This document shows positions 50,826 through 64,000 of a stretch of 64,000 nt of DNA, one piece after another. The translations under genes were made by a program, and so were the position numbers. Origin of the DNA: Luteococcus japonicus (GTDB taxonomy: Bacteria > Actinomycetota > Actinomycetes > Propionibacteriales > Propionibacteriaceae); assembly GCF_003752415.1 (NCBI RefSeq), contig NZ_RKHG01000001.1, positions 3,388,850 to 3,452,849 on the forward strand. The letters run 5' to 3'. Within the stretch, counting starts at the first letter, position 1. Every line of letters starts with the position of its first letter. A model generated the notes under the pieces. It saw only the letters and a program-made list of their open reading frames with translations. It did not search any database and was not told the DNA's origin.

Positions 50826-51683
50826 ATGACCATGCGGATCGATCTCCACACCCATTCGGTAGTCTCCGACGGCACCGACACGCCCACCCGCCTGGTCCTC
50901 AAGGCGATGGAGGTGGGGTTGGACGTGATTGCACTCACGGACCACGACACCTTCGACGGAATTCCCGAGGCCATCGAGGCCGGCAAGCGCATCGGCGTGA
51001 AGGTCATGTGCGGTATCGAGATGTCCACCCAGCTCGACGGACACTCGGTGCACCTGCTCGGCTACGGCTGCGACCCCTTCCATCGTCCGCTGGTGCAGGA
51101 ACTCGCCAAGATCCGGGTGGCCCGCACGGGGCGCCTGAAGGCCTTCGCGGAGCGGATGACCGAACTGGACATGCCGCTGGGCGTGGACGACATCATCGCC
51201 GCCGCCGGCGCATCGCCCTCGATCGGCCGTCCGCACGTCGCGGACGCGCTGGTGGCCAAGGGCTACGTCGGGCACCGCGACGAGGCATTCGACAAGTGGC
51301 TGCGTGAGGACAAGCCCGGCTACGTGCCGCGCTATGCCTGCGAGCTGTCCGCTGCCATCGACCTGATCCACGCCGCCAAGGGCATCGCGATCCTTGCCCA
51401 CCCGTGGGGTCGCGGCAATGAGTCCGTGCTGACCGCCGAGGTGATCGAGCGTCTGACCACCGAGAAGGGTCTGGACGGCATCGAGGTCAACCACCCCGAC
51501 CACGACGAGCGTGCGCGTGAGCTGCTCTTCGCCCTGGGCGGCCGCCTCGGACTGATCCGCACCGGCAGCTCGGACTACCACGGTCTCGGCAAGCGCAACA
51601 ACCCGCTGGGCGGCGAGAACACCCGGGACACCGCCTACCGCGAGATGCTGCGTCGCATCCGCCTGCGCGGCGGCATCGTCTGA
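50826..51683 (+). CDS. PHP domain phosphoesterase (RNase AM/YciV type)
   Basis: 285 residues with metal-binding motifs of the PHP fold: RIDLHTHSVVSDGTDTP, ALTDHDTFDGI, CGIEMSTQLDGHSVHLLGY, SIGRPHVADALV, AILAHPWGRG and TGSSDYHGLGK. Relatives remove 3'-phosphates from nucleoside 3',5'-bisphosphates and trim RNA 5' ends. It is probably cotranscribed with the dehydrogenase. Followed by the trpS leader. Confidence 0.9.
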   Translation: MTMRIDLHTHSVVSDGTDTPTRLVLKAMEVGLDVIALTDHDTFDGIPEAIEAGKRIGVKVMCGIEMSTQLDGHSVHLLGYGCDPFHRPLVQELAKIRVARTGRLKAFAERMTELDMPLGVDDIIAAAGASPSIGRPHVADALVAKGYVGHRDEAFDKWLREDKPGYVPRYACELSAAIDLIHAAKGIAILAHPWGRGNESVLTAEVIERLTTEKGLDGIEVNHPDHDERARELLFALGGRLGLIRTGSSDYHGLGKRNNPLGGENTRDTAYREMLRRIRLRGGIV

Positions 51684-51700
51684 GCGCGCAGCAGGCCTGT

Positions 51701-51706
51701 TAGGCT
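51701..51706 (+). promoter_or_regulatory. -10 element of trpS leader transcript
   Basis: TAGGCT ends 6 nt before the ATG at 51713, so transcription should start at or next to the leader-peptide start codon. Confidence 0.5.
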
Positions 51707-51712
51707 GGCCCC

Positions 51713-51766
51713 ATGATGACCACGACATGCTGGTGGCCGCCCCTCGGCGGCCAACGGAAGCAGTGA
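51713..51766 (+). CDS. trpS leader peptide with tandem Trp codons
   Basis: A 17-codon frame, MMTTTCWWPPLGGQRKQ, with two adjacent Trp codons (TGGTGG, 51731-51736), starting leaderless behind TAGGCT and ending at TGA 51764-51766. In Trp shortage a ribosome would stall at the WW pair. It lies 113 bp before trpS, which fits a transcription-attenuation leader. ATG at 51716 is an equivalent start. Confidence 0.8.
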   Translation: MMTTTCWWPPLGGQRKQ

Positions 51767-51822
51767 TCATCCACAAGATCATGTGACACCACCCAAGGGT
51801 CGCCGAGATTCGGCGGCCCTTG
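51734..51822 (+). promoter_or_regulatory. trpS attenuator (alternative hairpins)
   Basis: Segment 1 (TGGCCGCC, 51734-51741) pairs with segment 2 (GGCGGCCA, 51746-51753). Segment 2 in the form CTCGGCGGCC (51743-51752) can instead pair with segment 3 (GGTCGCCGAG, 51798-51807). Segment 3 otherwise forms the terminator stem with segment 4. The tandem Trp codons overlap segment 1, so stalling there frees segment 2 to form the antiterminator. All four segments are visible in the sequence; the mechanism is inferred. Confidence 0.75.
51794..51822 (+). terminator. trpS attenuator terminator
   Basis: 13-bp stem CAAGGGTCGCCGA / TCGGCGGCCCTTG with one G-U pair and a 3-nt loop. The following bases (TGTGCGTCTTG) are only weakly T-rich. 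Confidence 0.65.
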
Positions 51823-51882
51823 TGTGCGTCTTGACGACGTGCGGTCCGTCGGGTTCCCGGCGACGCGAATCGAGAGGAAATG

Positions 51883-53001
51883 ATGAGCGAGAACACCACG
51901 GCCGAGGTCGTCGAGGAGCAGATCAGCGAAGAGATCAGCGACGCGTCGCTGAAGCACTCCCTGGAGCGCAGCCGCCAGATCGAGGCGGACATTGCCAGCA
52001 ATCCCGGCAGGTACCGCATCCTCACCGGTGACCGACCGACCGGAAAGCTGCACATCGGCCACTACTTCGGCTCGTTGAGCAACCGCGTGCGCCTGCAGAA
52101 CCTGGGGGTGGAGACGATGCTCGTCGTCGCCGACTACCAGGTCATCTACGACCGCGACGGCGTGGGAAGCCTGCAGGAGAATGTGCTCAACGGCATGGCC
52201 GACTACCTGGCCTGCGGCATCGACCCCGAGCGCTCCACCATCTTCACCCACTCGTCGGTCACGGCCCTGAACCAGCTGCTGCTGCCCTTCCTGAGCCTGG
52301 TCACGGTGCCCGAACTGCACCGCAACCCGACGGTCAAGGACGAGATGGCCAACAACCCGAACCGTCCGATGAGTGGCCTGATGCTGACCTTCCCGGTGCA
52401 CCAGGCCGCGGACATCCTGTTCTGCAAGGCGAACCTTGTCCCCGTCGGCAAGGACCAACTGCCCCACATCGAGATCACCCGCGTCATCGCCCGTCGCTTC
52501 GACGAGCGCTACGGGCGAGTTGACGCCAAGACCCCCGTCTTTCCGCAGGCCGACGCCCTGATGAGCCCAGCCCCCGCCATCCTGGGCCTCGACGGCACCA
52601 AGATGAGCAAGTCCAAGGGCAACACCATTGAGATCGGGATGACCGCCGACGAGACGGCCAAGCTGATCAAGCGCGCCAAGACGGACTCGGAGCGTCACAT
52701 CAGCTATGACCCGGTCAACCGTCCCGAGGTCAGCAACCTGGTGCTGCTCGCGGCACTGGCCACCGGCGGGGACCCGGTGCAGATCGCCGACGAGCTGGGC
52801 GATTCCGGCGGTGGCGGCCTGAAGAAGCTGGTCACCGAGGCCATCAACGAGCACTTTGCGTCCATCCGTGCCCGTCGCGCCGAACTGGCGGCCAATCCGG
52901 ACCACCTGCGCGAGGTGCTGCGCGCGGGCAATGACAAGGCGAACGCGATCGCGGAGCAGACCCTCGACGAGGTCCGCTCCGCGATGGAGATGAAGTACTG
53001 A
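51883..53001 (+). CDS. trpS: Tryptophanyl-tRNA synthetase
   Basis: Charges tRNA-Trp. 372 residues, class Ic synthetase: HIGH-like KLHIGHYFGSL, ADYQVIYDRD, NNPNRPMSGLMLTFPVHQAA, PVGKDQLPHIEITR, and the KMSKS loop GTKMSKSKGNTI. It carries an N-terminal extension of about 45 residues ahead of the catalytic domain. GAGAGGA supports the ATG at 51883 (51880 is in frame). Expression is probably set by the upstream attenuator. Confidence 0.97.
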   Translation: MSENTTAEVVEEQISEEISDASLKHSLERSRQIEADIASNPGRYRILTGDRPTGKLHIGHYFGSLSNRVRLQNLGVETMLVVADYQVIYDRDGVGSLQENVLNGMADYLACGIDPERSTIFTHSSVTALNQLLLPFLSLVTVPELHRNPTVKDEMANNPNRPMSGLMLTFPVHQAADILFCKANLVPVGKDQLPHIEITRVIARRFDERYGRVDAKTPVFPQADALMSPAPAILGLDGTKMSKSKGNTIEIGMTADETAKLIKRAKTDSERHISYDPVNRPEVSNLVLLAALATGGDPVQIADELGDSGGGGLKKLVTEAINEHFASIRARRAELAANPDHLREVLRAGNDKANAIAEQTLDEVRSAMEMKY

Positions 53002-53008
53002 GCTGCGC

Positions 53009-53104
53009 TCACTCCTGCGAGCGGTTCTCCTGCCGCGACTGCGGAGCAAGGTAGCGCCACGGCGTGACGTCAGGCTGCAGCGGCATCGGGACGTGGATGA
53101 CCGT
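53009..53104 (-). pseudogene. Unidentified gene end fragment
   Basis: On the minus strand a coding-like stretch with strong GC third positions reads [20 protein letters not shown] and ends QENRSQE at a stop at 53009-53011. It has no start and is cut off where the monooxygenase remnant begins. The family is not recognised. Confidence 0.3.
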
Positions 53105-53966
53105 CGGGATGTCCCGGCCGCTGGCCTGCCGATCCAGGCCCGCAGCGTCGAGACCTTCCAGGTCTTCGGCTTCGCGCGCAGCATGGGCGTCGAGCGCACC
53201 ATCCGCGCCCGGTACGTGGTCGGTGGCGACGGTGCGCACTCCAAGGTGCGCAAAGCCATCGGCGCGCAGCACACCGGTGGCGCCAGCAAGCATGCCTGGG
53301 GGTGATGGCCATACTGGCCAATACCGACTTCCCGGACTGGAACACCACGTGGATCATCCAGTCCAACCAGGGCTCCATCCTGCACATCCGCGCGAGGGCG
53401 GCTTCCTGGTGCGGGTCTACGTCGACCTGGGTCAGGTGCCCGAGGACGACAACGGGAACATCCGCAAGACGCCTGTCGAGGAGATCATCCGTCGCGGCAA
53501 TGCGATCTTCGCGCCGTACTCCTTCGATGTGTTGGAGGTCTGCCGGTGGAGCGTCTACGAGATGGGCATCGCGTCACAGATCGCTTCGACGACATCCCCG
53601 TCGAGGAGGCCGGGCAGCGGATGCCGCACGTCTTCATCGCCGGCGACGCCTGCCACACCACTCCGCCAAAGCCGGCCAGGGGATGAACGTCTCCATGCAG
53701 GACGGCTTCAACCTGGCCTCGAAGCTGGCCCAGGTGCTACGCGGCCTGTCCGACGAGAGCCTGCTGACCACCTACACCTCCGAGCGGCAGGAGATCGCCC
53801 AGGACCTGATCGACTTCGACCGGGAGTGGTTTACAAGCCGTCGCGGATCATCGGCACCGACGAGCACCAGGATCTCGCCGCGGGGTGGACGATTGGCAAG
53901 CGGCTCAAGTCCTCACCCGTGATGCGGTTGAGCGACGCCAACGAGGTGGAGCTGCCGGACCAGCTC
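53075..53966 (+). pseudogene. Broken FAD monooxygenase (phenol 2-monooxygenase-like)
   Basis: Fragments in shifting frames give, in order, [31 protein letters not shown] (FAD-binding Asp-Gly block), [48 protein letters not shown] then [18 protein letters not shown], and [16 protein letters not shown]. There are single-base losses near 53300, 53390, 53573 and 53655, an internal deletion joining FQVFGFA to the GDG block, and a missing thioredoxin-like C-terminus. An aromatic ring hydroxylase once stood here. It is convergent with the ALDH gene. Confidence 0.75.
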
Positions 53967-55430
53967 TCAGAGGGGGTTGGGAAGTGCCACGTAGATGGTC
54001 TCCAGGAATTCCTCCAGTCCCTCGTGCGAACCCTCGCGGCCCAGGCCTGCCTGCTTGACCCCACCGAAAGGCGCCGCGGCATTGCTCATCACGCCCACAT
54101 TGGCGCCGATCATGCCCACCTCCAGAAGCTCGGCCATCCGCAGGATGCGGGAGGTGTCGCGGGTGAAGACGTAGCCCGCCAGACCGACCGCCGCCCGGTT
54201 GGCCAGCTCCAGGGCCTCCTCCTCTGTGGTGAAGGTGGTGATGGGGGCAACGGGGCCGAAGATCTCCTGCCCCAGGATGTCGGCGTCGTGACTGACGCCG
54301 GTGAGCACGGTGGGGGAGAGGAAATTGCCCGGGCCCTCGACGGCCTTGCCGCCGGTCAGCACAGTGGCGCCCTGCTCCACCGCCTTGCCCACCAGGTCGA
54401 GGATCTCGTCGCGGGCCTTGCCAGTGATGACAGGGCCAATGTCGGTGCTCTCGGACATGCCGTCGCCCACGCTCAGTGTCGCGAAGCGATCCGCCAGACG
54501 ACGGGAGAAGTCCTCGGCCACCGACTCGTGCACGATGAAGCGGTTGGCCGCGGTGCAGGCCTCCCCCATGTTGCGCAGCTTGGCGGCCGTCGCGCCCTCG
54601 ACGGCGGCGTCCAGGTCTGCATCCTCGAAGACCAGGAAGGGGGCATTGCCGCCCAGTTCCATCGAGGTACGCAGCACGCCGTCGGCCGCTTGCTCCAGGA
54701 GCTGCTTGCCCACGCCGGTGGACCCAGTGAAGGACAGCTTGCGCAGCCGCTCGTCGGCCAGGATCGCGTCGGTGACGTCGTGCTTCTCACTGGTGATGAC
54801 GTTGACCACGCCCGCGGGCAGTCCGGCGTCGGCGAGCACCTTGGCGAACAACAGTGAGGTGAGTGGGGTCAGGGAGGCGGGGCGCAGCACCACGGTGCAG
54901 CCGGCGGCCAGTGCCGGGCCCACCTTGCGGGTGGCCATGGCCAGCGGGAAGTTCCACGGGGTGATCAGCAGGCAGGGGCCGACGGGGCGCTTGGCCACCA
55001 GGTGGCGGGCCGTGCCCTCGGGGGAGATGCCGTAGCGGCCGTGGATCCGCACCGCCTCCTCGCTGAACCAGCGCAGGAATTCGGCGCCATAGGTCACCTC
55101 GCCGCGGGCCTCTGCCAGCGGCTTGCCCATCTCCAGGGTCATCAACCGGGCGAAGTCATCGGTGCGCTCGATCACCAGGTCGAAGGCGCGGCGCAGGATC
55201 TCGGAACGCTCGCGCGCGGGCGTGGCGGCCCAGGTCCGGGAAGCGTCGCAGGCGGCGTCCATCGCGGCCTTGCCATCCTCGACGTTGGCATCGGCAATCT
55301 CGCAGAGCACCTCACCCGTTGCAGGGTTCTCGACGGCCAGGGTGCCCCGACTCCCGGGGCGCCACGAGCCGTTGATGAACAGTCCGGTCTCAAGGTCTTC
55401 GGGAAGGCTCGGGTGGGTGGTGGTCGACAT
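53967..55430 (-). CDS. Succinate-semialdehyde-type dehydrogenase (NAD(P)+)
   Basis: 487 residues, intact. Aldehyde dehydrogenase blocks: KRPVGPCLLITPWNFPLAMA, SFTGSTGVGKQLLEQAADG, the general-base Glu in SMELGGNAPFLVFEDAD, the catalytic Cys in RNMGEACTAANRFIVHE, EIFGPVAPI and PFGGVKQAGLGREG. The pattern is closest to GabD-type succinate-semialdehyde dehydrogenases. In an aromatic or amine pathway it would oxidise a semialdehyde product; the exact substrate is inferred. Its upstream gap holds a palindrome likely used by the nearby GntR regulator. Confidence 0.88.
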   Translation of the reverse strand: MSTTTHPSLPEDLETGLFINGSWRPGSRGTLAVENPATGEVLCEIADANVEDGKAAMDAACDASRTWAATPARERSEILRRAFDLVIERTDDFARLMTLEMGKPLAEARGEVTYGAEFLRWFSEEAVRIHGRYGISPEGTARHLVAKRPVGPCLLITPWNFPLAMATRKVGPALAAGCTVVLRPASLTPLTSLLFAKVLADAGLPAGVVNVITSEKHDVTDAILADERLRKLSFTGSTGVGKQLLEQAADGVLRTSMELGGNAPFLVFEDADLDAAVEGATAAKLRNMGEACTAANRFIVHESVAEDFSRRLADRFATLSVGDGMSESTDIGPVITGKARDEILDLVGKAVEQGATVLTGGKAVEGPGNFLSPTVLTGVSHDADILGQEIFGPVAPITTFTTEEEALELANRAAVGLAGYVFTRDTSRILRMAELLEVGMIGANVGVMSNAAAPFGGVKQAGLGREGSHEGLEEFLETIYVALPNPL

Positions 55431-55493
55431 CGTTGGGACACCTCCGGGGGATTTGGATCTACGCGTTCGCTTTCACGATAGACCGTTGCATTA

Positions 55494-55511
55494 GTATACG
55501 AAATCGTATGC
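55494..55511. promoter_or_regulatory. Palindromic operator (GntR/FadR-type candidate)
   Basis: ATACGAAATCGTAT (55496-55509) is a perfect palindrome around AA, extended to GTATACGAAATCGTATGC with one mismatch. It lies midway between the divergent ALDH and FAH/MFS genes. GntR FCD regulators bind short A/T-rich palindromes of this kind, and one is encoded 1.3 kb away. Confidence 0.55.
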
Positions 55512-55586
55512 GATCCATGGCACGAGGCAAGGCCCCATTGCTCGCACGTCCGCAGGGTCGCGGACACGTCATAGGGAGACACCCTG

Positions 55587-56735
55587 TTGAACGGCGTCGA
55601 GAGTCAGACCGGGCATCCGGTCGGCAAGATCATCGCCGTCCACCTCAACTACCGTTTGCGCTGCGACGAGCGAGGCCGGACACCCAGCGAGGCGTGCTAC
55701 TTCATGAAGCCCACCAGCTCCCTTGCCGCCAGCGCCGAGGTGGAGCGCCCCGAGGGCTTCGAGCTGCTCGACTACTTCATCTACGCCAATGCCGCGGCGC
55801 TGATCTTCGGCCCGCATTTCTTCAAGGCCGTGCCAGAGAGCATGCAGCTCATCCTGAGTTTTGCCACCGTGGGCATCTCCTTCCTCTTCCGCCCGTTCGG
55901 TGCGGCGGTTGCGGGGCACTACGGGGACCGTCTCGGCCGCAAGGCGATGCTCGTGCTCACCCTGATGCTGATGGGCGGCGCCACAACACTGATCGGCCTG
56001 CTGCCCACCGCCAATGCGATCGGCATCTGGGCCCCGATCCTGCTGATCGTGCTGCGCATCGTGCAGGGCTTCAGCGCCGCCGGCGAGTGGGGCGGTGCTG
56101 CCCTGATGGCCGTCGAGCACACACCGTCCGAAAAGCGCGGCCGGTTCGGCGCCTTCCCCCAGATCGGTGGTCCCGTCGGCATGCTGATGTCCACCGGCTT
56201 CCTGGCGATGCTCTCGGTGCTGCTCACCGAGCAGCAGTTCCAGGCCTGGGGCTGGCGCGTGCCCTTCCTCTTCTCGGTCGTGCTGATCGGCATCGGCATG
56301 TGGATCCGAATGGGCGCCACCGAGTCTCCCGTCTTCCAGGAGCTCACCGAGCACCCCCGAAGAGGTGAATATGCCGCTCGGCCAGGTCTTCAAGCACAGC
56401 TCCAAGGAGGTGCTGCAGAGCGCCGGTGACTTCATCGGCAACAATGCCGCGGGCTACATGCTGGTGGGTGGCTTCATCATCGCCTACACCACACAGGTGC
56501 TGGGCATGCCCAAGCAGGAGGTCCTCAACGTCGTGACCCTGTCGGCCGTCAGCTGGGGTTTCTTCACCTGGATGGGTGGCGTGCTGTCCGACAAGTCACC
56601 AAGTACCACAGCACCCGTCCCGTGGCCTACTACCTGATCGGCGTGACACTGCTCGCCCTGCTGGCCATCTTCACCACCAAGGACCGAACCGGCCTGCGCC
56701 TGGACAAGGACGCGCCGGACATGCCGCAGCTCTGA
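55587..56735 (+). pseudogene. Fumarylacetoacetase-family/MHS-transporter chimera, frameshifted
   Basis: The TTG start (AGGGAG 8 nt upstream) opens with VGKIIAVHLNYRLRCDERGR and YFMKPTSSLAAS, the start of a fumarylacetoacetate hydrolase (HpaG-like) protein. After ERPEGFELL it runs in frame into DYFIYANAAALIFGP, the first helix of an MHS-type MFS carrier, then GHYGDRLGRKAMLV and GFSAAGEWGGAALMAVEHTP. A base gain near 56355 and a loss near 56595 shift the frame, and the region after SDK is short by several helices before LIGVTLLALLAIFTTKDRT. It cannot make either protein. Confidence 0.75.
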
Positions 56736-56790
56736 GCGTGCGGCGCCGTTATCCTCGTCCACAGCAGATGGTCAAACCTGGAGGTGCCCC

Positions 56791-57444
56791 GTGGGGGAGT
56801 CGAAGTCCGAGCTGGTCTACCGTGACCTGCGCGAACGGATCATGCACGCCGACTTCTCCGCGGGGCATCGCCTCGTGCTGGCCCGGCTGGCCGAGCACTA
56901 CCAGGTCAGCCCCGTGCCCGTGCGTGAGGCGCTGCGACGTCTGGAGGCCGAAGGCCTGGTCCGCTACACCCTGAACATCGGCGCCGAGGTCGTCGGCGTC
57001 AATGCGGCCGACTACACCGAGACCATGCAGGTGCTGGCCCAGCTGGAGGGCCTGGCCACCGCGCTGGCCGCACAGGTGATGGACGAGCAGACCCTGGAGC
57101 GCGCCCGGGAGATCAACGAACGGATGCGCGAGCTTCGTTCCAGCGGCTTCGATCCCGTGCAGTTCACCTCACTGAACCACGAATTCCACGTCGTGCTGTG
57201 CAGCGTCTGCCCCAACCACCACCTGCTGGACCTGTTGGGACGTGAATGGGAGCGGATGGCGCAGATCCGCAGCTCCACCTTCAGCCATGTCCCGGATCGC
57301 TCCCGGACATCGGTGGAGGAGCACGACCAGCTGCTCGAACTGATCGGTGGTCAGGCGCCGCAAGCCATGATCGAGGAGCTGGCACGACGCCACAAGCTGG
57401 GCACCCTGCGGCAGTTCCTGGACTCGGAGGGCTCCAGGTCCTGA
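56791..57444 (+). CDS. GntR-family transcriptional regulator (FCD type)
   Basis: 217 residues, intact. N-terminal winged helix (VYRDLRERIMHADFSAGHRL, EHYQVSPVPVREALRRLEAE) and C-terminal FCD ligand domain with metal-site residues in LNHEFHVVLC and EEHDQLLELI. FCD proteins sense small carboxylic acids and usually repress adjacent catabolic genes. It likely acts at the palindrome at 55494-55511. GGAGG is 6 nt before the GTG. Confidence 0.9.
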   Translation: MGESKSELVYRDLRERIMHADFSAGHRLVLARLAEHYQVSPVPVREALRRLEAEGLVRYTLNIGAEVVGVNAADYTETMQVLAQLEGLATALAAQVMDEQTLERAREINERMRELRSSGFDPVQFTSLNHEFHVVLCSVCPNHHLLDLLGREWERMAQIRSSTFSHVPDRSRTSVEEHDQLLELIGGQAPQAMIEELARRHKLGTLRQFLDSEGSRS

Positions 57445-57823
57445 TCTCCGGTGGCATGGGCCCGCCAGCGTGGGCCGAGCCAAGGGTGCGCCCGCTGGTG
57501 GCCAACATCGACAACGACAACGCCCTGGTCCAGAAGGAGCAGTTCGGGCCCGCGCTGCCGATCGTGCCCTACACCGATCTGGAGCAGGCCATCGAGTGGG
57601 CCAATGACTCCGAGGTGGGCCTGGGATCGTCGGTGTGGAGCAGCGACCCGGAGCGTGCCCTGCAGGTCGCCGACCGCCTGGTGGCCGGCACCACGTGGAT
57701 CAACAAGCACGGTGCCATCGATCCGCGGGTTCCCTTCGGCGGCGTGAAGCAGTCCGGCTTCGGGCTGGAGTTCGGCGTCGAGGGCCTCAAGGAGATGGGT
57801 CTGCCCAAGGTGGTCAGCCACTG
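57445..57823 (+). pseudogene. Aldehyde dehydrogenase C-terminal stub
   Basis: Without a start of its own, this frame picks up at the GntR stop and gives about 125 residues of an ALDH C-terminus: VANIDNDNALVQKEQFGPAL, EWANDSEVGLGSSVWSSDPE, AGTTWINKHGAIDPRVPFGG. Catalytic Glu and Cys are missing. It differs from the intact ALDH at 53.9 kb, so it is a second, deleted enzyme. Confidence 0.7.
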
Positions 57824-57874
57824 ACCTTCACACGCTCCCCGACCCTCACACGCTCCCCGGGCCTGTCGAGGGAC

Positions 57875-58619
57875 TCACCCGTCGCCCCGGCCACGTCGTC
57901 GCAGGGCTGCTGCGGGTGATTCCGTGTGGGCGGCCTTGAAGGTGAGGGAGAAGTGGGCGGCGTCGGTGAATCCCGAGCGGGCGCCGATCACGGCCACCGG
58001 TGTGTACCGCTGCGCGGGGTCGACGAGGTCCTGGTGGCAGCGCTCCAGGCGGCGGGAGCGCACATAGGCGGAGACGGTCATGCCCTGTTCGAGGAAGACA
58101 TTGTGCAGGCGCCGGGTGGAGATGAAGTTCGCGGTGGCGATCGAGCTGGGGGACAGGCCGGGACTGCCCAGATGCTCGTCGATGTGGTCGCGAATCTGCT
58201 GAAGCAGGGCCCAGTGGGGTGAGGCGGCCGTCCTGGTCACGTCGAGCTCATTGGTCAGCAGGGTCTGCAGCAGGTCGACGGTATTGTGCACCAGCCGGGT
58301 GCCCGCGGGGCCGGACAGGTCGTCGAGGCCCGCGACGAGCTGGCTGAGGAAGGGCGAGACGATCCGCCCCAGCCCGGCATCGCCTCCCAACCGCACGACG
58401 GTCATCTGCTCCAGCAGTCCGTAGGGGATGCCGAAACGGGAGTGCGGCGCACGGTCTGCGCCGTGGCGCGCACCGTGGAGAAGGAACCCCGGCCACGGTG
58501 CGTGAGGCGAGCTTGCCGCGGAAGTCGTCCGGGCTGGGGCTGGTGACCTCAAGCGGCACGAAGGAGGCGTCGACGGCAGCGCGGAAGGCGGTCAGGTGCA
58601 GCGCCTGTCCGTCCACCAT
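57875..58619 (-). pseudogene. AraC-family regulator with internal deletion
   Basis: From 58619 one frame gives LTAFRAAVDASFVPLEVTSP and DDFRGKLASRTVAGV, the start of an AraC-binding-like sensory domain. The rest is in another frame: FGIPYGLLEQMTVVRLGGDA, IVSPFLSQLVAGLDDL and the AraC helix-turn-helix (SPSSIATANFISTRRLHNVF, SGFTDAAHFSLTFKAAH). About 100 residues of the sensory domain are missing at the junction. The DNA-binding half alone is readable. Confidence 0.65.
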
Positions 58620-58636
58620 CGCGCCTCCTTCGTGGC

Positions 58637-60255
58637 TCAGGCCTCGGGCGTGCTCTCCGGCGCGGTCGATCCCTTGCCGCGGTTGCGGCGGCGGCGGCGC
58701 GGCTTGTGCTCGCCCTGTTCCTCTGACTTCGGGGCCTCGGCGGGGGCAGAAGCGGTCTGCTCGCTGCCCTCGGCCACCGGCTCACCATTCTTCAGGCGGC
58801 GACGGCTGCGCTGCGGACGGTCCTTGCGGGGCTCGCGGGAATGCTCGACGCCTTCGTCCTCGCTGGACTTCTCCCTGCCTCGGCCACGGCCTGCGTCCCG
58901 TCCACCGCGGCCACCGCCACGACGGTCGTCGTCGCGCTTGGGGCGGTCCTTGGGCTGGGCACCTGCGAGCTTGCCCTTGGTGCCCTCCGGGATGTCCAGA
59001 TCCGTGTACAGGTGTGCGGAGGTGGAGTAGGTCTCCACCGGGTCGTCGAAGCTCAGCTCCAGGGCCTTGTTGATCGTCTTCCAGCGCACGATGTCCGCCC
59101 AGTCGACCAGGGTGATGGCAATGCCCTTGTGCCCGGCGCGGCCGGTGCGGCCGATCCGGTGCACATAGGTCTTGGCATCCTCCGGGCACTCGTGGTTGAT
59201 CACGTGGCTGACACCCGTCACGTCGATGCCGCGGGCGGCGACGTCGGTGGCCACCAGCACCTTGACCTCACCGGCGCGGAAGCGCTTGAGGGCCTTCTCC
59301 CGCATGGCCTGGTTCAGGTCGCCGTGGATGCTGGCCGCGTTGAAGCCGCGATCCTCGAGCTCGTCGGACAGCCGCTGCGCGGCACGCTTGGTCTTGCAGA
59401 AGACCATCACCTTGTCCACGTCACTGGCCTGCAGGACGCGGGCGATGATCTCCGGCTTGTCCAGGTTGTGGGCCTGGTAGACGAACTGGGTGGTGTCCGG
59501 CACGGTCGCCTGGGCATCGTGGCCCTCTGCGCGGACATTGATCGGCTGGTGCATGTGGGCACGGGCCAGCCCGATGATGGCGCTCGGCATGGTGGCGGAG
59601 AACATCAGCATCTGACGGTCGGTCGGGGCCATGGCGATCAGGCGCTCGACGTCGGGCAGGAAGCCCAGGTCCAGCATCTCGTCGGCCTCGTCCAGCACCA
59701 GCATGCGCAGCCAGGACAGGTCCAGGGTGCCGCGCTCGGCGAGGTCCTTCAGACGGCCCGGAGTGCCGACGACCACGTCGACACCCTCGGTGAGGGCATC
59801 CACCTGGGCGTCGTAGCCGACGCCGCCGTAGACGGTCAGGACGCGGGCCTTTCGGATGGTGGAGGCCACCTGCAGGTCCTTGGAGACCTGCAGCGCCAGC
59901 TCACGGGTGGGGCACATCACCAGGGCCTGCGGCTTGCCCGGGGCATCTCCAGGTCCTCGTAGCCCTCGTCGCCCTCCAGGATGGTGCGCTGCAGGATGGA
60001 GATGCCGAAGGCCAGCGTCTTGCCGGTTCCGGTGCGGGCCTGGCCCATCAGGTCGGTGCCCATCACCGCGATCGGGATGGCCAGCGTCTGGATGGGGAAA
60101 GGATGGGTGATTCCCTGGGTCTCCAGCGCCTGCTGGATCTCCGGGACGACGCCCAGATCATCCCAGCTGGTCTGCACATCCGGTTCGGGGGTGGTTACGT
60201 TGTCGCCCACCAGGCCATCGACGCGCTCGGCGTCCACGTTCATGTTCTCTGTCAC
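58637..60255 (-). pseudogene. DEAD-box RNA helicase (RhlE-like), one frameshift
   Basis: The first frame (GTG at 60255) gives TSWDDLGVVPEIQQALETQG, Q-motif FPIQTLAIP and Walker A GQARTGTGKT, and ends after DLEMPRASR. The second gives CPTRELALQVS, VLDEADEMLDLGF, MLMFSATMPS, FCKTKRAAQRLSDELED, VATDVAARGIDV and HRIGRTGRAG, then a basic C-terminal tail. Restoring one G near 59945 joins them into about 540 residues without any loss. Either a sequence error or a very recent mutation. It remodels RNA in ribosome assembly or decay. Confidence 0.85.
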
Positions 60256-60497
60256 GGTCCAAGACTCTCTCGTCGCCGATCGTCAGACCGGCCAGAACTT
60301 CTGCAGGTGGCCACATCCGGCGGTGCCCAGAGGGGTCCGGGCACCAGGCGCGGGGCTCGACCTGCGGTCGCACGGGAACGTGCGACCCCTCAAGGCTACC
60401 CTCTTGGCGGTCCCGGCGTCCGGATCCGGCCTTGCCACGGCCCGTCATCGGGGGCAACACACCCGCTTCCACGCCGGGAAGAGGTGCCGCGGCGCAC

Positions 60498-60503
60498 TAC
60501 GCT
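60498..60503 (+). promoter_or_regulatory. -10 element, leaderless ferritin-like gene start
   Basis: TACGCT, 7 nt (tgctgcc), then GTG at 60511. Confidence 0.45.
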
Positions 60504-60510
60504 TGCTGCC

Positions 60511-61194
60511 GTGAGCAAGAACACCTCCGGCGCTGGACGCCCCGTGGAACCCACCTCCCAGATCGAGCTGCTGGGGCTGGTGGCGTATGGCTCGCTCGCG
60601 GCCTTCGAGCGCACCGCGCAGGCCTCTGCGGCCGCCACCAGCATCGACGACAAGCTGGTGCTGGCGCGCATCGCGGCGCAGCGCTTCACCCACCTGGGGC
60701 GGTTGGAGACCGAGCTGGCCCGTCGGGGCAGCACTCTCAAGGCAGCGATGGAAGCCTTCGTCGCACCGATCGACTCCTTCAACCAGCACACCGAGCCACG
60801 CACCTGGGGTGAGGTCCTGGTGAAGCTGTGCATCATCGGAGGGCTCGTGCAGGACTTCGCCGACGAGATCTCTGGGCACCTGGACGCGGGCCTGCGTGAG
60901 ATCCTCACCGGCTCCATCGACGACGGGGAACTGGCCTCCGAGCCGGGCCAGATGCTGGCCAGGGCACTCCAGGAGGATCCAGAGCAGCAGGGTCGGCTGG
61001 CGCTCTTCGGCCGCCGGATGCTGGGGGAGGCGCTCAGCCAGGCGCAGCGCGTCGCGGCAGCCCGCGCGGACCTCACGGGCTTGCTCACCGGACTGGGACA
61101 GGACGGGGGCGACGACCTGGCCGCAATCAGTCACCTGATGTCACGGTTGGCCGCCGCCCACGCCACTCGGATGGAGTCGCTGGGGCTCGCCTGA
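60511..61194 (+). CDS. Ferritin-like fold protein
   Basis: 227 residues, all helical: LVAYGSLAAFERTAQASAAA, LARIAAQRFTHLGRLETELA and later helices. The spacing of Glu (AFER) and of Glu in GRLETEL suggests a ferritin-like four-helix bundle, in a family that lies between rhlE-type helicase and DUF3107 genes in other actinobacteria. It has been compared with MiaE-type di-iron hydroxylases, but the substrate is unknown. The gene is intact. Confidence 0.7.
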   Translation: MSKNTSGAGRPVEPTSQIELLGLVAYGSLAAFERTAQASAAATSIDDKLVLARIAAQRFTHLGRLETELARRGSTLKAAMEAFVAPIDSFNQHTEPRTWGEVLVKLCIIGGLVQDFADEISGHLDAGLREILTGSIDDGELASEPGQMLARALQEDPEQQGRLALFGRRMLGEALSQAQRVAAARADLTGLLTGLGQDGGDDLAAISHLMSRLAAAHATRMESLGLA

Positions 61195-61195
61195 T

Positions 61196-61420
61196 TCAGG
61201 CCGCGCCGAAGCCCACGGGCCGGCTGTGCTCCTGACCCAGGTCCACGTAGCCAATCTGCTGTGAGGGCACGAGGACACGGCGACCCTTGGCATCGGTCAG
61301 TCGCAGGACACCACCCTCGGCCAGAGCGGAGCGCAGGGACTGTTCGACCTCGTCGGCCGAGGCCTCAGTGTCGATGTTGATCTCGCGCGGGACGTTGTTG
61401 ACACCAATCTTGATTTCCAC
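61196..61420 (-). CDS. DUF3107 family protein
   Basis: 74 residues, GTG start: EIKIGVNNVPREINIDTEAS, GGVLRLTDAKGRRVLVPSQQ, IGYVDLGQE. This is the small ATP-binding-annotated DUF3107 family (Rv3208A-like), universal in actinobacteria and of unknown role. The GTG is 6 nt after TAGGTT. Confidence 0.92.
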   Translation of the reverse strand: MEIKIGVNNVPREINIDTEASADEVEQSLRSALAEGGVLRLTDAKGRRVLVPSQQIGYVDLGQEHSRPVGFGAA

Positions 61421-61426
61421 GGCCCC

Positions 61427-61432
61427 AACCTA
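61427..61432 (-). promoter_or_regulatory. -10 element, leaderless DUF3107 start
   Basis: Minus-strand TAGGTT, 6 nt (ggggcc), then GTG at 61420. Its TAG is also the PP2C stop codon. Confidence 0.4.
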
Positions 61433-62289
61433 CCCGACGCGCAAGAGGGCGACGGTGATGTTGTCCCGGCCGCCCTGCTCATTGGCCCAGGCCACCAGCA
61501 TGGCGGCGCTCTCGGCCGCGTCGTGCTCGCACTCGTCGACGATGCGGTGCACGAGGCTGGTCATGTCCTCCGGGGCGGAGCGGTAGTTCCACAGCCCGTC
61601 GCTGCAGACCAGCAGCCACCCCGGGCCGGGCACGTCCAGCGCCGCGACCCTGGGGTCACGTCCTGGCTGTCGGGGCCCAGCCAGCGGGTGATGGCGTGGG
61701 CCTGGAAGCTGCGCTCGGCGTCCTCCCGGCTCATCCCCAGATCGATCCTGGCCTGCGCCAGGGAGTCGTCGACACTGAGGATGTGGCAGGAGGCGTCGTC
61801 GCCGATCCAGTAGGCGCGGCAGTCGCCGACATTGCCGACGCTCACCCGGCCCTCGTTCAGGACTGCGCAAATCAGGGTGCAGGAGCCGGGTGTCGGGCCG
61901 GGGCCGGTGCTGGCGAGCACTGCGTCATTGGCGGCGATGAAGGCATCTGTCAGTGTGGCCTGCACCTGCTCGGCGGAGGCATCGGGCATCGTGCGCAGCA
62001 TGGCGATCAGGGTGGAGCTGGCCACTTCCGCGGCGATGGCCGCCGACTCCTCGGAGCCCAGCGAGGTGGACACGCCATCGCTGATCACCAGAACGGCCAA
62101 CCGGCCCTGGGTGGTCTCTCGGCCGCCCAGCGCCAGGGCATCCTGATTGGTCTCGTGCCGGCGGCCGACGTCGCTGCAGCCGGCCAGCCAGGGCAGCGGC
62201 GCCAAGGTGTAGTGGTCACGCGCCGTCTCGCCGACGGCCACATGGGACAGCCCGGACGCCGTCTCGGACCCCCGATCCTGGTCAGTCAT
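61430..62289 (-). pseudogene. PP2C-type protein phosphatase, one frameshift
   Basis: The first frame (ATG 62289) has GCSDVGRRHETNQDALAL, VLVISDGVSTSLGSEESA, NVGDCRAYWIGDD and AITRWLGPDSQDV. The second gives VAALDVPGPGWLLVCSDGLW and the last metal motif GRDNITVALL. A one-base indel near 61668 separates them; otherwise all Mn/Mg-binding Asp residues are present. It would dephosphorylate Ser/Thr sites; no kinase gene is in the window. Confidence 0.82.
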
Positions 62290-62344
62290 GGAAGGAAGTC
62301 CACCATGAGCGGGGGTGATTGTGCCAGTCGGGGGCCCGGGCCTG

Positions 62345-63306
62345 TCAACCGAGCGTGGGAAGGGGAGCGGCGCATGCCGGATCCAGCAACTCGTGCCAGA
62401 GGTCACCGTGCTCTTCGACGCGCTGCAGGACCTGACCCGCGGTGAAGCTGAGCGTGTCGCGCTCGCCGACCGCGGCGACCTCGTCCCAGGACAGTGGCGT
62501 GGAGACCGATTCGAAGGGCCTCGCCCGCAACGAGTAGGGCGCGATGGTGTTGCGTGCTGCCTGGTTCTGAAGGTAGTCCGACGAAGATGCGCTCGGCGCG
62601 TCGTTCCTTGGCCATCACGGCCACGAAGATCTCCGGGTACTGGGAGGCCAGGCGCTGGGCGAAGGCGCGCGCCTGCTCGACGACCAGCTGCCAGCCGTGG
62701 GCTCGATGGGGGCGAAGACCTGCAGCCCCTTGTTGCCGGAGGTCTTCACGAATGGATCAGGCCGAGCCCGGCGAGTTCGGTGGCCACCAGCATGGCGGCC
62801 CGGCACGAGCCGGCCATCGTGATCCCCGGGCCCGGATCCAGGTCCACCACCAGGCGGTCGCTACGGACCAGGTCAGGAGCTTCCAGGCTGATCGGAGCGT
62901 CGGCACTGGCACAGGCACCGGTCAGGGTGTCGATCCGCCACTGGGGGGTGTGCAGTTCCAGGGCCGCCAGGTTGGCCAGCCAGACCAGGGTGGCCGGGGA
63001 GTCGGCCAGCGGGTAGTCGATGGGGACCGACGAGGCATCGACCCGCTGGCGCACCACCCACTCCGGCGTGGCCCCGGGCAGGTTCTTCTCGTAGAAGGAG
63101 TCGCCGTCGGCCCCCTCGGGAAAGCGCCTGCGGGTGATGCAGCGGCCCTCGAGATGGGCAAGCATGACAGGAGCAATCCGCACGTAGTAGTCGATCACCT
63201 CGGCCTTGGTGAAGCCCGTGGCGAACAGCGGCTTGTCCAGGTTCGTCAGGCCCAGTGGACGCCCCTCCACTTGGGTGGTGACGCTGTTGGCCTCGGGCAT
63301 GGACAT
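62345..63306 (-). pseudogene. LigD-type NHEJ polymerase domain, three indels
   Basis: An AEP-type polymerase of about 315 residues without ligase or nuclease domains. Frame pieces: VEGRPLGLTNLDKPLFATGF, DYYVRIAPVMLAHLEGR, the catalytic DxD in LVVDLDPGPG, then FVKTSGNKGLQVFAPIEP, AVMAKERRAERIFV, and RARPFESVSTPLSWDEVAAV. A lost T near 62747, a lost C near 62702 and a gained G near 62577 split it; restoring them gives a continuous protein. With Ku it would fill and prime broken ends. Confidence 0.78.
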
Positions 63307-63350
63307 GGGGCGCCCATGATGCCAGCAGAAGAGTCGGTGACGCCAAAGTG

Positions 63351-63374
63351 GCCCCGGGAGTCACCTCCCGGGGC
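63351..63374 (+). terminator. Hairpin between ligD and csp genes
   Basis: Perfect 10-bp stem GCCCCGGGAG / CTCCCGGGGC with a TCAC loop; a second perfect hairpin, AGGGTCA-TCCT-TGACCCT-like, follows at 63383-63400. They probably end the cold-shock transcript. Confidence 0.6.
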
Positions 63375-63400
63375 ACTGTGGCAGGGTCATCCTTGACCCT

Positions 63401-63440
63401 CTGGCATGTGTTGTCAATCGCCTGGCATGTGTGTCAATCG
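63401..63440 (+). repeat. Tandem repeat over the csp gene end
   Basis: CTGGCATGTGTTGTCAATCG (63401-63420) is repeated at 63422-63440 with one T fewer. The second copy contains the csp stop codon and the first copy an equivalent TCA, so it is a duplicated 3' end. Confidence 0.6.
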
Positions 63441-63635
63441 CGCGGACGTGATCCGCTTGCTGGCCCTCGGCCCTGGACGACGTCGAACTCGACTGCCTGG
63501 CCCTCATCGAGCGAACGGAAGCCCGAGCTCTCGATGGCGCTGTAGTGGACGAAGAACGTCCTCGTTGCCGCCATCGACGGCCGATGAAGCCAAAACCCTT
63601 TTCGGCATTGAACCACTTGACGGTTCCGTTGCCAT
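63434..63635 (-). pseudogene. Cold-shock protein (CspA family), three indels
   Basis: The ATG at 63635 (AGGAAG 6 nt upstream) should open a protein of about 67 residues. Pieces in three frames give [15 protein letters not shown] (RNP1), DGGNEDV, and [20 protein letters not shown] (RNP2 onward). One base is missing near 63627 and one extra C occurs near 63574 and near 63547. Csp proteins are RNA chaperones normally kept intact, so a sequence error is likely. Confidence 0.75.
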
Positions 63636-63795
63636 GACCAACTTCCTAATTGCATTTTGCTTGCGAGCAACCGCACCTCACGGCCTCGTGAAGACCACCC
63701 TGTCACAGACGCGGCTCATGCAAAACCCTCCCAAAGTGTGTTGGATGGATTGGCTTCGTGGTGCTCCGCAGGTTTTGTCAGTGCCATCTGGTTGC

Positions 63796-64000
63796 ATGGT
63801 CGACGTGGCAGAGCGACGCTTCACCCTCACCCCGGCACTGCGCCCGAAGGAGCGCCCCGTCGAGCTCGACGAGGCCCAGCTTCGCGTGGTCACGCACCGC
63901 GGCACGCCCGGCCAGGGAACGCGTTGCTGGTGGCCGGCGGACCCGGCACCGGCAAGACGACGACCCTGGTTGAGTCGGTCGCGGCTCGCGCCAGCGACCA
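63796..64000 (+). CDS. UvrD/AdnA-like helicase, 5' part, one indel
   Basis: The gene runs off the right edge. The start VDVAERRFTLTPALRP leads to LDEAQLRVVTHRGTPGQG; after a one-base indel near 63922 the frame continues ALLVAGGPGTGKTTTLVESV, a superfamily 1 Walker A. The position beyond DUF3107 and the long N-terminal arm suggest the actinobacterial AdnA subunit of the AdnAB end-resection motor, but only about 65 residues are visible. Confidence 0.6.
   Translation, partial: MVDVAERRFTLTPALRPKERPVELDEAQLRVVTHRGTPGQGTRCWWPADPAPARRRPWLSRSRLAPAT

Follow-up and report, generated by a model that had tools for sequence, protein, structure and literature searches.

The window analysed here, a stretch of 64,000 nucleotides from Luteococcus japonicus, contains trpS, the gene for tryptophan--tRNA ligase (TrpRS), together with a short leader in which a -10-like box, a small reading frame bearing two adjacent Trp codons, and four segments with alternative pairing partners follow one another (Table 1). 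The identity of the downstream gene was upheld by a TIGR00233 match of 223 bits (cut-off 177) and by an additional match to PF00579, and the frame behind the TAGGCT box, when read directly, lies exactly where the original prediction had placed it. For trpS, the Shine-Dalgarno GAGAGGA favours the second ATG over the one at 51880, so that 51883 is the probable start.

Table 1. Features of the trpS leader and its borders, in window coordinates
Feature	Coordinates	Strand	Remark
PHP-domain gene, stop codon	51681-51683	+	gene ends upstream of the leader
-10-like box TAGGCT	51701-51706	+	read directly; followed by GGCCCC, then the leader ATG
Leader peptide frame MMTTTCWWPPLGGQRKQ with stop, 17 codons	51713-51766	+	predicted to be leaderless (no 5' UTR)
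Leader start codon ATG	51713-51715	+	read directly
Tandem Trp codons TGG TGG	51731-51736	+	predicted sensor; read directly
Segment 1	51734-51741	+	overlaps second Trp codon; 1:2 hairpin, -17.0 kcal/mol
Segment 2	51743-51753	+	pairs with 1 or 3 (folding energies, shuffle test)
Leader stop codon TGA	51764-51766	+	read directly
3:4 hairpin	51794-51822	+	predicted terminator, -23.7 kcal/mol; followed by TGTGCGTCT
Segment 3	51798-51807	+	pairs with 2 or 4 (folding energies, shuffle test)
Segment 4	51811-51821	+	folding energies
trpS Shine-Dalgarno GAGAGGA	51872-51878	+	better fit to the ATG at 51883 than to that at 51880
trpS, tryptophan--tRNA ligase	51880-53001	+	start probably 51883

Directly upstream of trpS, at 50826-51683, lies a PHP-domain phosphoesterase gene whose product shows its best NCBIfam likeness, below the cut-offs, to 3',5'-nucleoside bisphosphate phosphatase and RNase RNM; the E. 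coli relative (trpH/rnm) neighbours the trp operon. Right behind trpS (53064-53960) are pieces of a phenol-hydroxylase-like FAD monooxygenase, and because PF01494 and PF07976 fall in separate frames, these pieces likely represent a pseudogene or sequencing errors. A search of the genome found the window trpS as the only intact TrpRS gene once an apparent assembly duplicate had been set aside: window positions 52199-64000 match C1:13763-25561 in this assembly at 100% and then at 99.5% identity, and C1:11000-13760 is identical to C1:128962-131722. Since C1:11000-25561 is made up of two stretches that occur (near-)identically elsewhere, we rejected a paralogue as the explanation of the trpS piece at C1:13723 and regard that piece as a false partial copy; the start of C1 is most likely a chimeric assembly fault, with a true recent duplication still conceivable.

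The TAGGCT box ends 6 nt before the leader ATG; no good -35 element lies near it, and a promoter scan returned no full sigma-70 consensus promoter. Among 59 leaders collected for comparison, the distance from box to start codon was 6 nt in 33 and 7 nt in 26, and because most of these leaders had been gathered with a distance filter of 5-8 nt (one listing also took frames with two adjacent Trp codons, hereafter WW, with no filter), the sharp fact is that distances of 5 and 8 nt are absent among the 59. WW occurs in 54/59 leaders and a single or split Trp in 5/59, and 58/59 have no Shine-Dalgarno-like motif upstream of the leader start, the motif being present in one. The spacing of 6-7 nt between -10 box and start codon, together with the lack of a Shine-Dalgarno, points, as far as sequence can tell, to a peptide translated from the very 5' end of a leaderless message. 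Throughout the window, five short frames follow a TANNNT box by 5-8 nt (five on the + strand, none on the - strand), of which the trpS leader is the one with WW; there is no second boxed WW frame anywhere in the 64 kb.

As had been claimed for this leader, its segments pair in two competing ways, 2:3 against 3:4, with a 1:2 hairpin overlapping the reading frame. The 3:4 hairpin consists of 13 pairs around a loop of 3, the 2:3 pairing of 10 pairs including one G-U (-22.1 kcal/mol), and the 1:2 pairing of 8 pairs; according to the folding model the three would be mutually exclusive, with segment 1 overlapping the Trp codons. The complementarity exceeds that of shuffled sequence by several measures: the fold of the leader RNA beats 200/200 dinucleotide shuffles (z -6.5), the region of segment 2 complements segment 3 at z -4.36 (p 0.002, 400 shuffles), and when the first 24 bases were held fixed and the remainder was shuffled, 0/300 shuffles matched the energy of 3:4, 0/300 that of 2:3, and 0/300 reached -15 kcal/mol in both.

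The arrangement recurs upstream of trpS in relatives, for which we used three overlapping sets of loci, several named species recurring in the sets from genome searches: the best 80 of 369 named TrpRS loci (mostly Actinomycetota, with two Treponema); 49 loci from 147 genomes of the family, 29 returned by the search and 20 picked mainly for more genera; and 39 of 40 class-wide orthologues of the window TrpRS at 55-65% identity, one locus (L159, 217 bases) having been dropped. A strict scan that did not require Trp codons searched the 420 bases upstream for a -10-like box followed at 6-7 nt by an ATG or GTG frame of 8-30 codons. Such a frame was found in 14/80 of the best 80 of 369 named loci (13 with Trp, 11 with WW), in 19/49 family loci (19 with Trp, 15 with WW) and in 35/39 class loci (35 with Trp, 34 with WW), and in the same 420 bases of the reverse strand at 167 loci (L093 left out) the scan returned 4 frames, none with Trp. 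At L093, where the contig ends early, the whole stretch was scanned and no leader was found. A looser scan picked up single-Trp frames upstream of L196 and L200, at a distance of some 390-415 nt; the strict scan drops both. No Trp frame was present in 67/80 named (best 80 of 369), 30/49 family and 4/39 class loci.

To compare stems, the best compact hairpin behind each leader was taken, and the stretch from the Trp codons to the hairpin was set against the hairpin's 5' arm and against its own dinucleotide shuffles; compact hairpins were used, the lowest-energy choice of up to 44 nt having often swallowed segment 2 or the ribosome-binding site. Across 39 representatives of the 59 leaders, 22/39 reached p<0.05 with a mean z of -2.08 (the window, as above, -4.36); since the rows are kin, a combined p is no probability. 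The 17/39 that missed p<0.05 include 7/8 rows of Propionibacterium, Acidipropionibacterium and Cutibacterium, and with those eight rows omitted, 21/31 reached p<0.05 (mean z -2.33); in the Cutibacterium rows the hairpin selected was the one covering the ribosome-binding site, and the preceding one was passed over. Relatives that keep trpS with neither the WW frame nor the alternating stems had been named in advance as counting against an attenuator, and the many loci lacking a Trp frame do so, whereas the leaders that are present keep both their Trp codons and their spacing. Because of that conservation, and because 22/39 have switchable stems beyond shuffles, loss is the better reading of the relatives that lack the leader. 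An Acidipropionibacterium (L022/L115) keeps a TAGAGT box with the leader absent, and another relative (L101) keeps a TATGAT box and an ATG with no Trp codon; from their sequences, these are apparent natural losses.

A different architecture is seen in Cutibacterium (L012, L013, L021, L024, L043, L099 and L124, and also L027), where the Trp leader is followed by a chain of segments, GGCCGCC/GGCGGC and then CCTCGTCGC/GCGGCGAGG, the latter lying over the Shine-Dalgarno and having no T run; GGCGGCG can alternatively pair with CGTCGCC. In the last of these hairpins 9 inner pairs are kept in 7/7 aligned loci (L027 is outside the alignment), and a change on both sides occurs in only 1/36 pairs of that alignment. 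A relay ending in the release of the ribosome-binding site is thus possible in this group. As for the biosynthetic genes, no boxed frame with two Trp codons was found at the sole trpE match above the family cut-off in the window genome (L134); at a lesser trpE-like locus (L135), a loosely matching T[AG]NNNT box precedes one WW frame some 1.1 kb upstream of the match.

The class contains two TrpRS lineages, the other one being about 35% identical to the TrpRS of the window. Each of the leader-bearing family genomes (19/19) has a single TrpRS match. In a further search for both copies in 17 genomes, 16 had two, and when both copies were read the leader preceded exactly one in 14/16, neither in 2/16 and both in 0/16. 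Thirteen genomes have one copy per lineage: in 12 of them the window-type copy has the leader, in none does the other copy, and G212 lacks it on both. Three more have two copies that both belong to the other lineage; a leader precedes one copy in two of these genomes and neither copy in G191. Two leader-bearing loci, L190 and L206 (genomes G294 and G404), belong to this other lineage, their TrpRS being split from that of the window by a branch with SH-aLRT 100, and carry on one of two copies the leaders MTTRTCFLQWWAA and MTTRTCTQLWWAA, which are close to the published TrpL2 of Streptomyces lividans. On a tree of 133 proteins (a quick search, with several long branches), 12 changes account for the distribution of the leader label, of which well-supported branches force at least 9; shuffled labels need 33.7. 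The leader-bearing rows sit at the base of the window lineage, which argues that the leader likely has an old origin followed by repeated loss. A fuller history, which we put forward tentatively and hold to be somewhat doubtful as a whole, is that the leaderless Trp attenuator is an old shared control of one TrpRS lineage that was moved to, or re-invented on, the second lineage in Streptomyces, was kept where the first lineage became the sole TrpRS of the cell (Propionibacteriaceae, Cutibacterium), was repeatedly lost with its promoter left behind, and was rebuilt in Cutibacterium as a relay of six segments whose end point is the ribosome-binding site, not a terminator.

With frame, box at leaderless distance and alternating stems all present, and recurring upstream of trpS in many relatives, the original prediction of a leaderless Trp attenuator in front of trpS is well supported by the sequence comparisons. 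In our assessment the leader is quite probably a ribosome-mediated transcription attenuator that would raise TrpRS synthesis when charged tRNA-Trp is scarce, with translation of the peptide predicted to begin at the very 5' end of the message. Transcription would start at or beside the A of the ATG at 51713. With charged tRNA-Trp plentiful, or with the leader left untranslated, either 1:2 would form or the ribosome at the stop codon would cover most of segment 2, so that 3:4 could form and most transcripts would be expected to end near 51823-51835. A point against this step is that segment 2 ends 10 nt upstream of the leader stop codon, which lets a ribosome there cover it only partly. When charged tRNA-Trp is scarce, the ribosome would stall on TGG TGG and cover segment 1, allowing 2 to pair with 3 before segment 4 is made, which would pre-empt 3:4 and let RNA polymerase read through into trpS. 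In folds of the full leader with a stalled ribosome, 3:4 is still more stable than 2:3 (-39.3 vs -33.1 kcal/mol), and because it outweighs 2:3 at equilibrium, antitermination must be kinetic, with 2:3 forming first. No other intact TrpRS gene having been found in the genome, the circuit would act homeostatically, with trpS responding to the Trp-tRNA that its enzyme makes.

The output side is where the case is weakest. Of the claimed 3:4 terminator, the hairpin is there and a proper T run is lacking: there are only 4 T among the 9 bases that follow, and a terminator scan of the leader returned no terminator-like site, so that an intrinsic terminator here might be inefficient or depend on other factors. 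These same features, along with tails of 0-3 T in 9 in many relatives' rows and the lack of a uridine-rich sequence in S. lividans trpL2 (in excerpts of PMC8079986), would suit a version in which the Trp-stalling leader is kept and Rho or a NusG-aided pause, instead of an intrinsic terminator, makes the decision. An idle ribosome would then leave untranslated RNA for Rho, and a stalled one would alter the fold. Rho, however, needs no fit of the kind seen between segment 2 and an arm of the 13-pair 3:4 stem, which goes beyond shuffles, and in some relatives (L138, L142 and L146) T makes up 5-6 of the 9 bases after the hairpin; we consider this version unlikely, though with a small yet appreciable chance. 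If the stems gated the ribosome-binding site of trpS and not transcription, the attenuation would be translational, as the conserved inner pairs over the Cutibacterium Shine-Dalgarno might suggest, and GAGAGGA in the window is itself partly paired; yet 57 nt lie between the end of the 3:4 hairpin (51822) and the trpS start codon, and the mean unpaired probability of GAGAGGA hardly shifts among the three ribosome states (0.35 with no ribosome, 0.42 with one stalled at the Trp codons and 0.41 with one at the stop), which makes this reading improbable. Since pairing is nearly equal in all three states, the modelled output of the window attenuator is most likely transcription. A ribosome-binding site left unpaired in every fold was considered as well and ruled out, the site being partly paired to about the same extent in each state.

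A more sceptical view is that there is no regulation at all, and that an ordinary promoter is followed by a GC-rich intergenic hairpin in which TGG TGG happens to occur. Short WW frames with no box are indeed not rare in the window (36/1216, both strands, nested starts counted apart), and many relatives are without the leader. Against this, no boxed WW frame appeared when 20 single strands of 64 kb were simulated with a first-order Markov model (mean 4.55 boxed short frames per strand), nor on 167 reverse strands; no shuffle in 300 reproduced the stems; and the layout recurs across families despite differing sequence, all of which leaves coincidence very improbable. A T-box or another RNA binding tRNA or an amino acid might also be imagined before trpS, given the T-boxes predicted before ileS in Actinobacteria (in excerpts of PMC1262725), but no cis-regulatory Rfam family reaches its gathering score in the window, and the region 51680-51900 yields only seven weak Rfam matches at E up to 10, none of them a T-box; we find such an RNA scarcely credible here. 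Likewise, no Rfam leader of amino-acid operons reached its gathering score, the window matches being a tmRNA and one tRNA only. A sub-threshold likeness to the atpB RNA family at 51794-51896 (24.7 bits, gathering score 37.4, E 0.00084 in a search of 221 bases) is probably a chance effect of the GC-rich hairpin. The attenuator reading remains the one we prefer.

Vecchione and Sello, in a paper of 2010, reportedly placed an auxiliary trpRS gene under ribosome-mediated transcriptional attenuation, a gene that we take to be S. coelicolor trpRS1. By its title that mechanism is alike, although the gene is auxiliary and antibiotic-resistant, whereas the window holds the sole intact TrpRS gene of its genome. 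TrpRS1 is described as indolmycin-resistant in excerpts of PMC9437257. Among attenuators identified through RNA-seq in S. lividans TK24 is a leaderless TrpL2 (MMTRTCTQLWRAA) before trpS (excerpts of PMC8079986), which resembles the window in being a short leaderless Trp leader with two hairpins and, as mentioned above, no uridine-enriched sequence; it differs in having one Trp codon, where the window leader has two. The Streptomyces trpL2/trpRS1 locus would not be orthologous to that of the window: through the near-identical leader MTTRTCTQLWWAA of L206, found in two-TrpRS genomes, it is assigned to the other TrpRS lineage, an assignment made by likeness of leader peptides, whereas the window gene is the only intact one found in its genome.

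An attenuator of S. avermitilis trpS2 was predicted as early as 2005, along with trp attenuators in Corynebacterium and Streptomyces (excerpts of PMC1262725). Like the window leader, these have repeated UGG codons and antiterminator and terminator hairpins, and their gGCC-rGCy-GGCC triples resemble window segments 2-3-4; in contrast, the terminators of the trp operons have poly-U tracts, and the window hairpin is T-poor. The same excerpts make no mention of Propionibacteriaceae trpS or of leaderless starts. The leaderless cysteine attenuators of mycobacteria (Canestrari 2020, as described in excerpts of PMC9031893) are similar to the window in that a short leaderless frame controls downstream genes through sensing codons, but they respond to cysteine, not tryptophan, and those excerpts mention no terminator. 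No account of trpS attenuation in Propionibacteriaceae was found in the literature searched, which covered few subscription papers; two works of the Lyubetsky group (2010 and 2015), devoted by their titles to Actinobacteria and aminoacyl-tRNA operons, may include one. The kind of switch is therefore not new, as the leaderless layout is in print for Streptomyces trpS (excerpts of PMC8079986); what the present analysis adds is its occurrence in a member of the Propionibacteriaceae, the predicted control of a TrpRS gene with no second intact copy found in the genome, and the pattern across the class.

For annotation, we suggest the rule that the leader marks the regulated copy where a genome has two TrpRS genes, as it stands before exactly one in 14/16 such genomes. 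If the proposed mechanism is true, the leader would offer a compact natural read-out of Trp-tRNA charging and a clean system for studying how leaderless translation keeps pace with RNA polymerase, and it would provide a case of U-poor hairpins that may yet be regulatory. An essential, single-copy tRNA synthetase in this actinobacterial group would then be set by feedback that senses its own product, through a ribosome that starts at the first base of the message.
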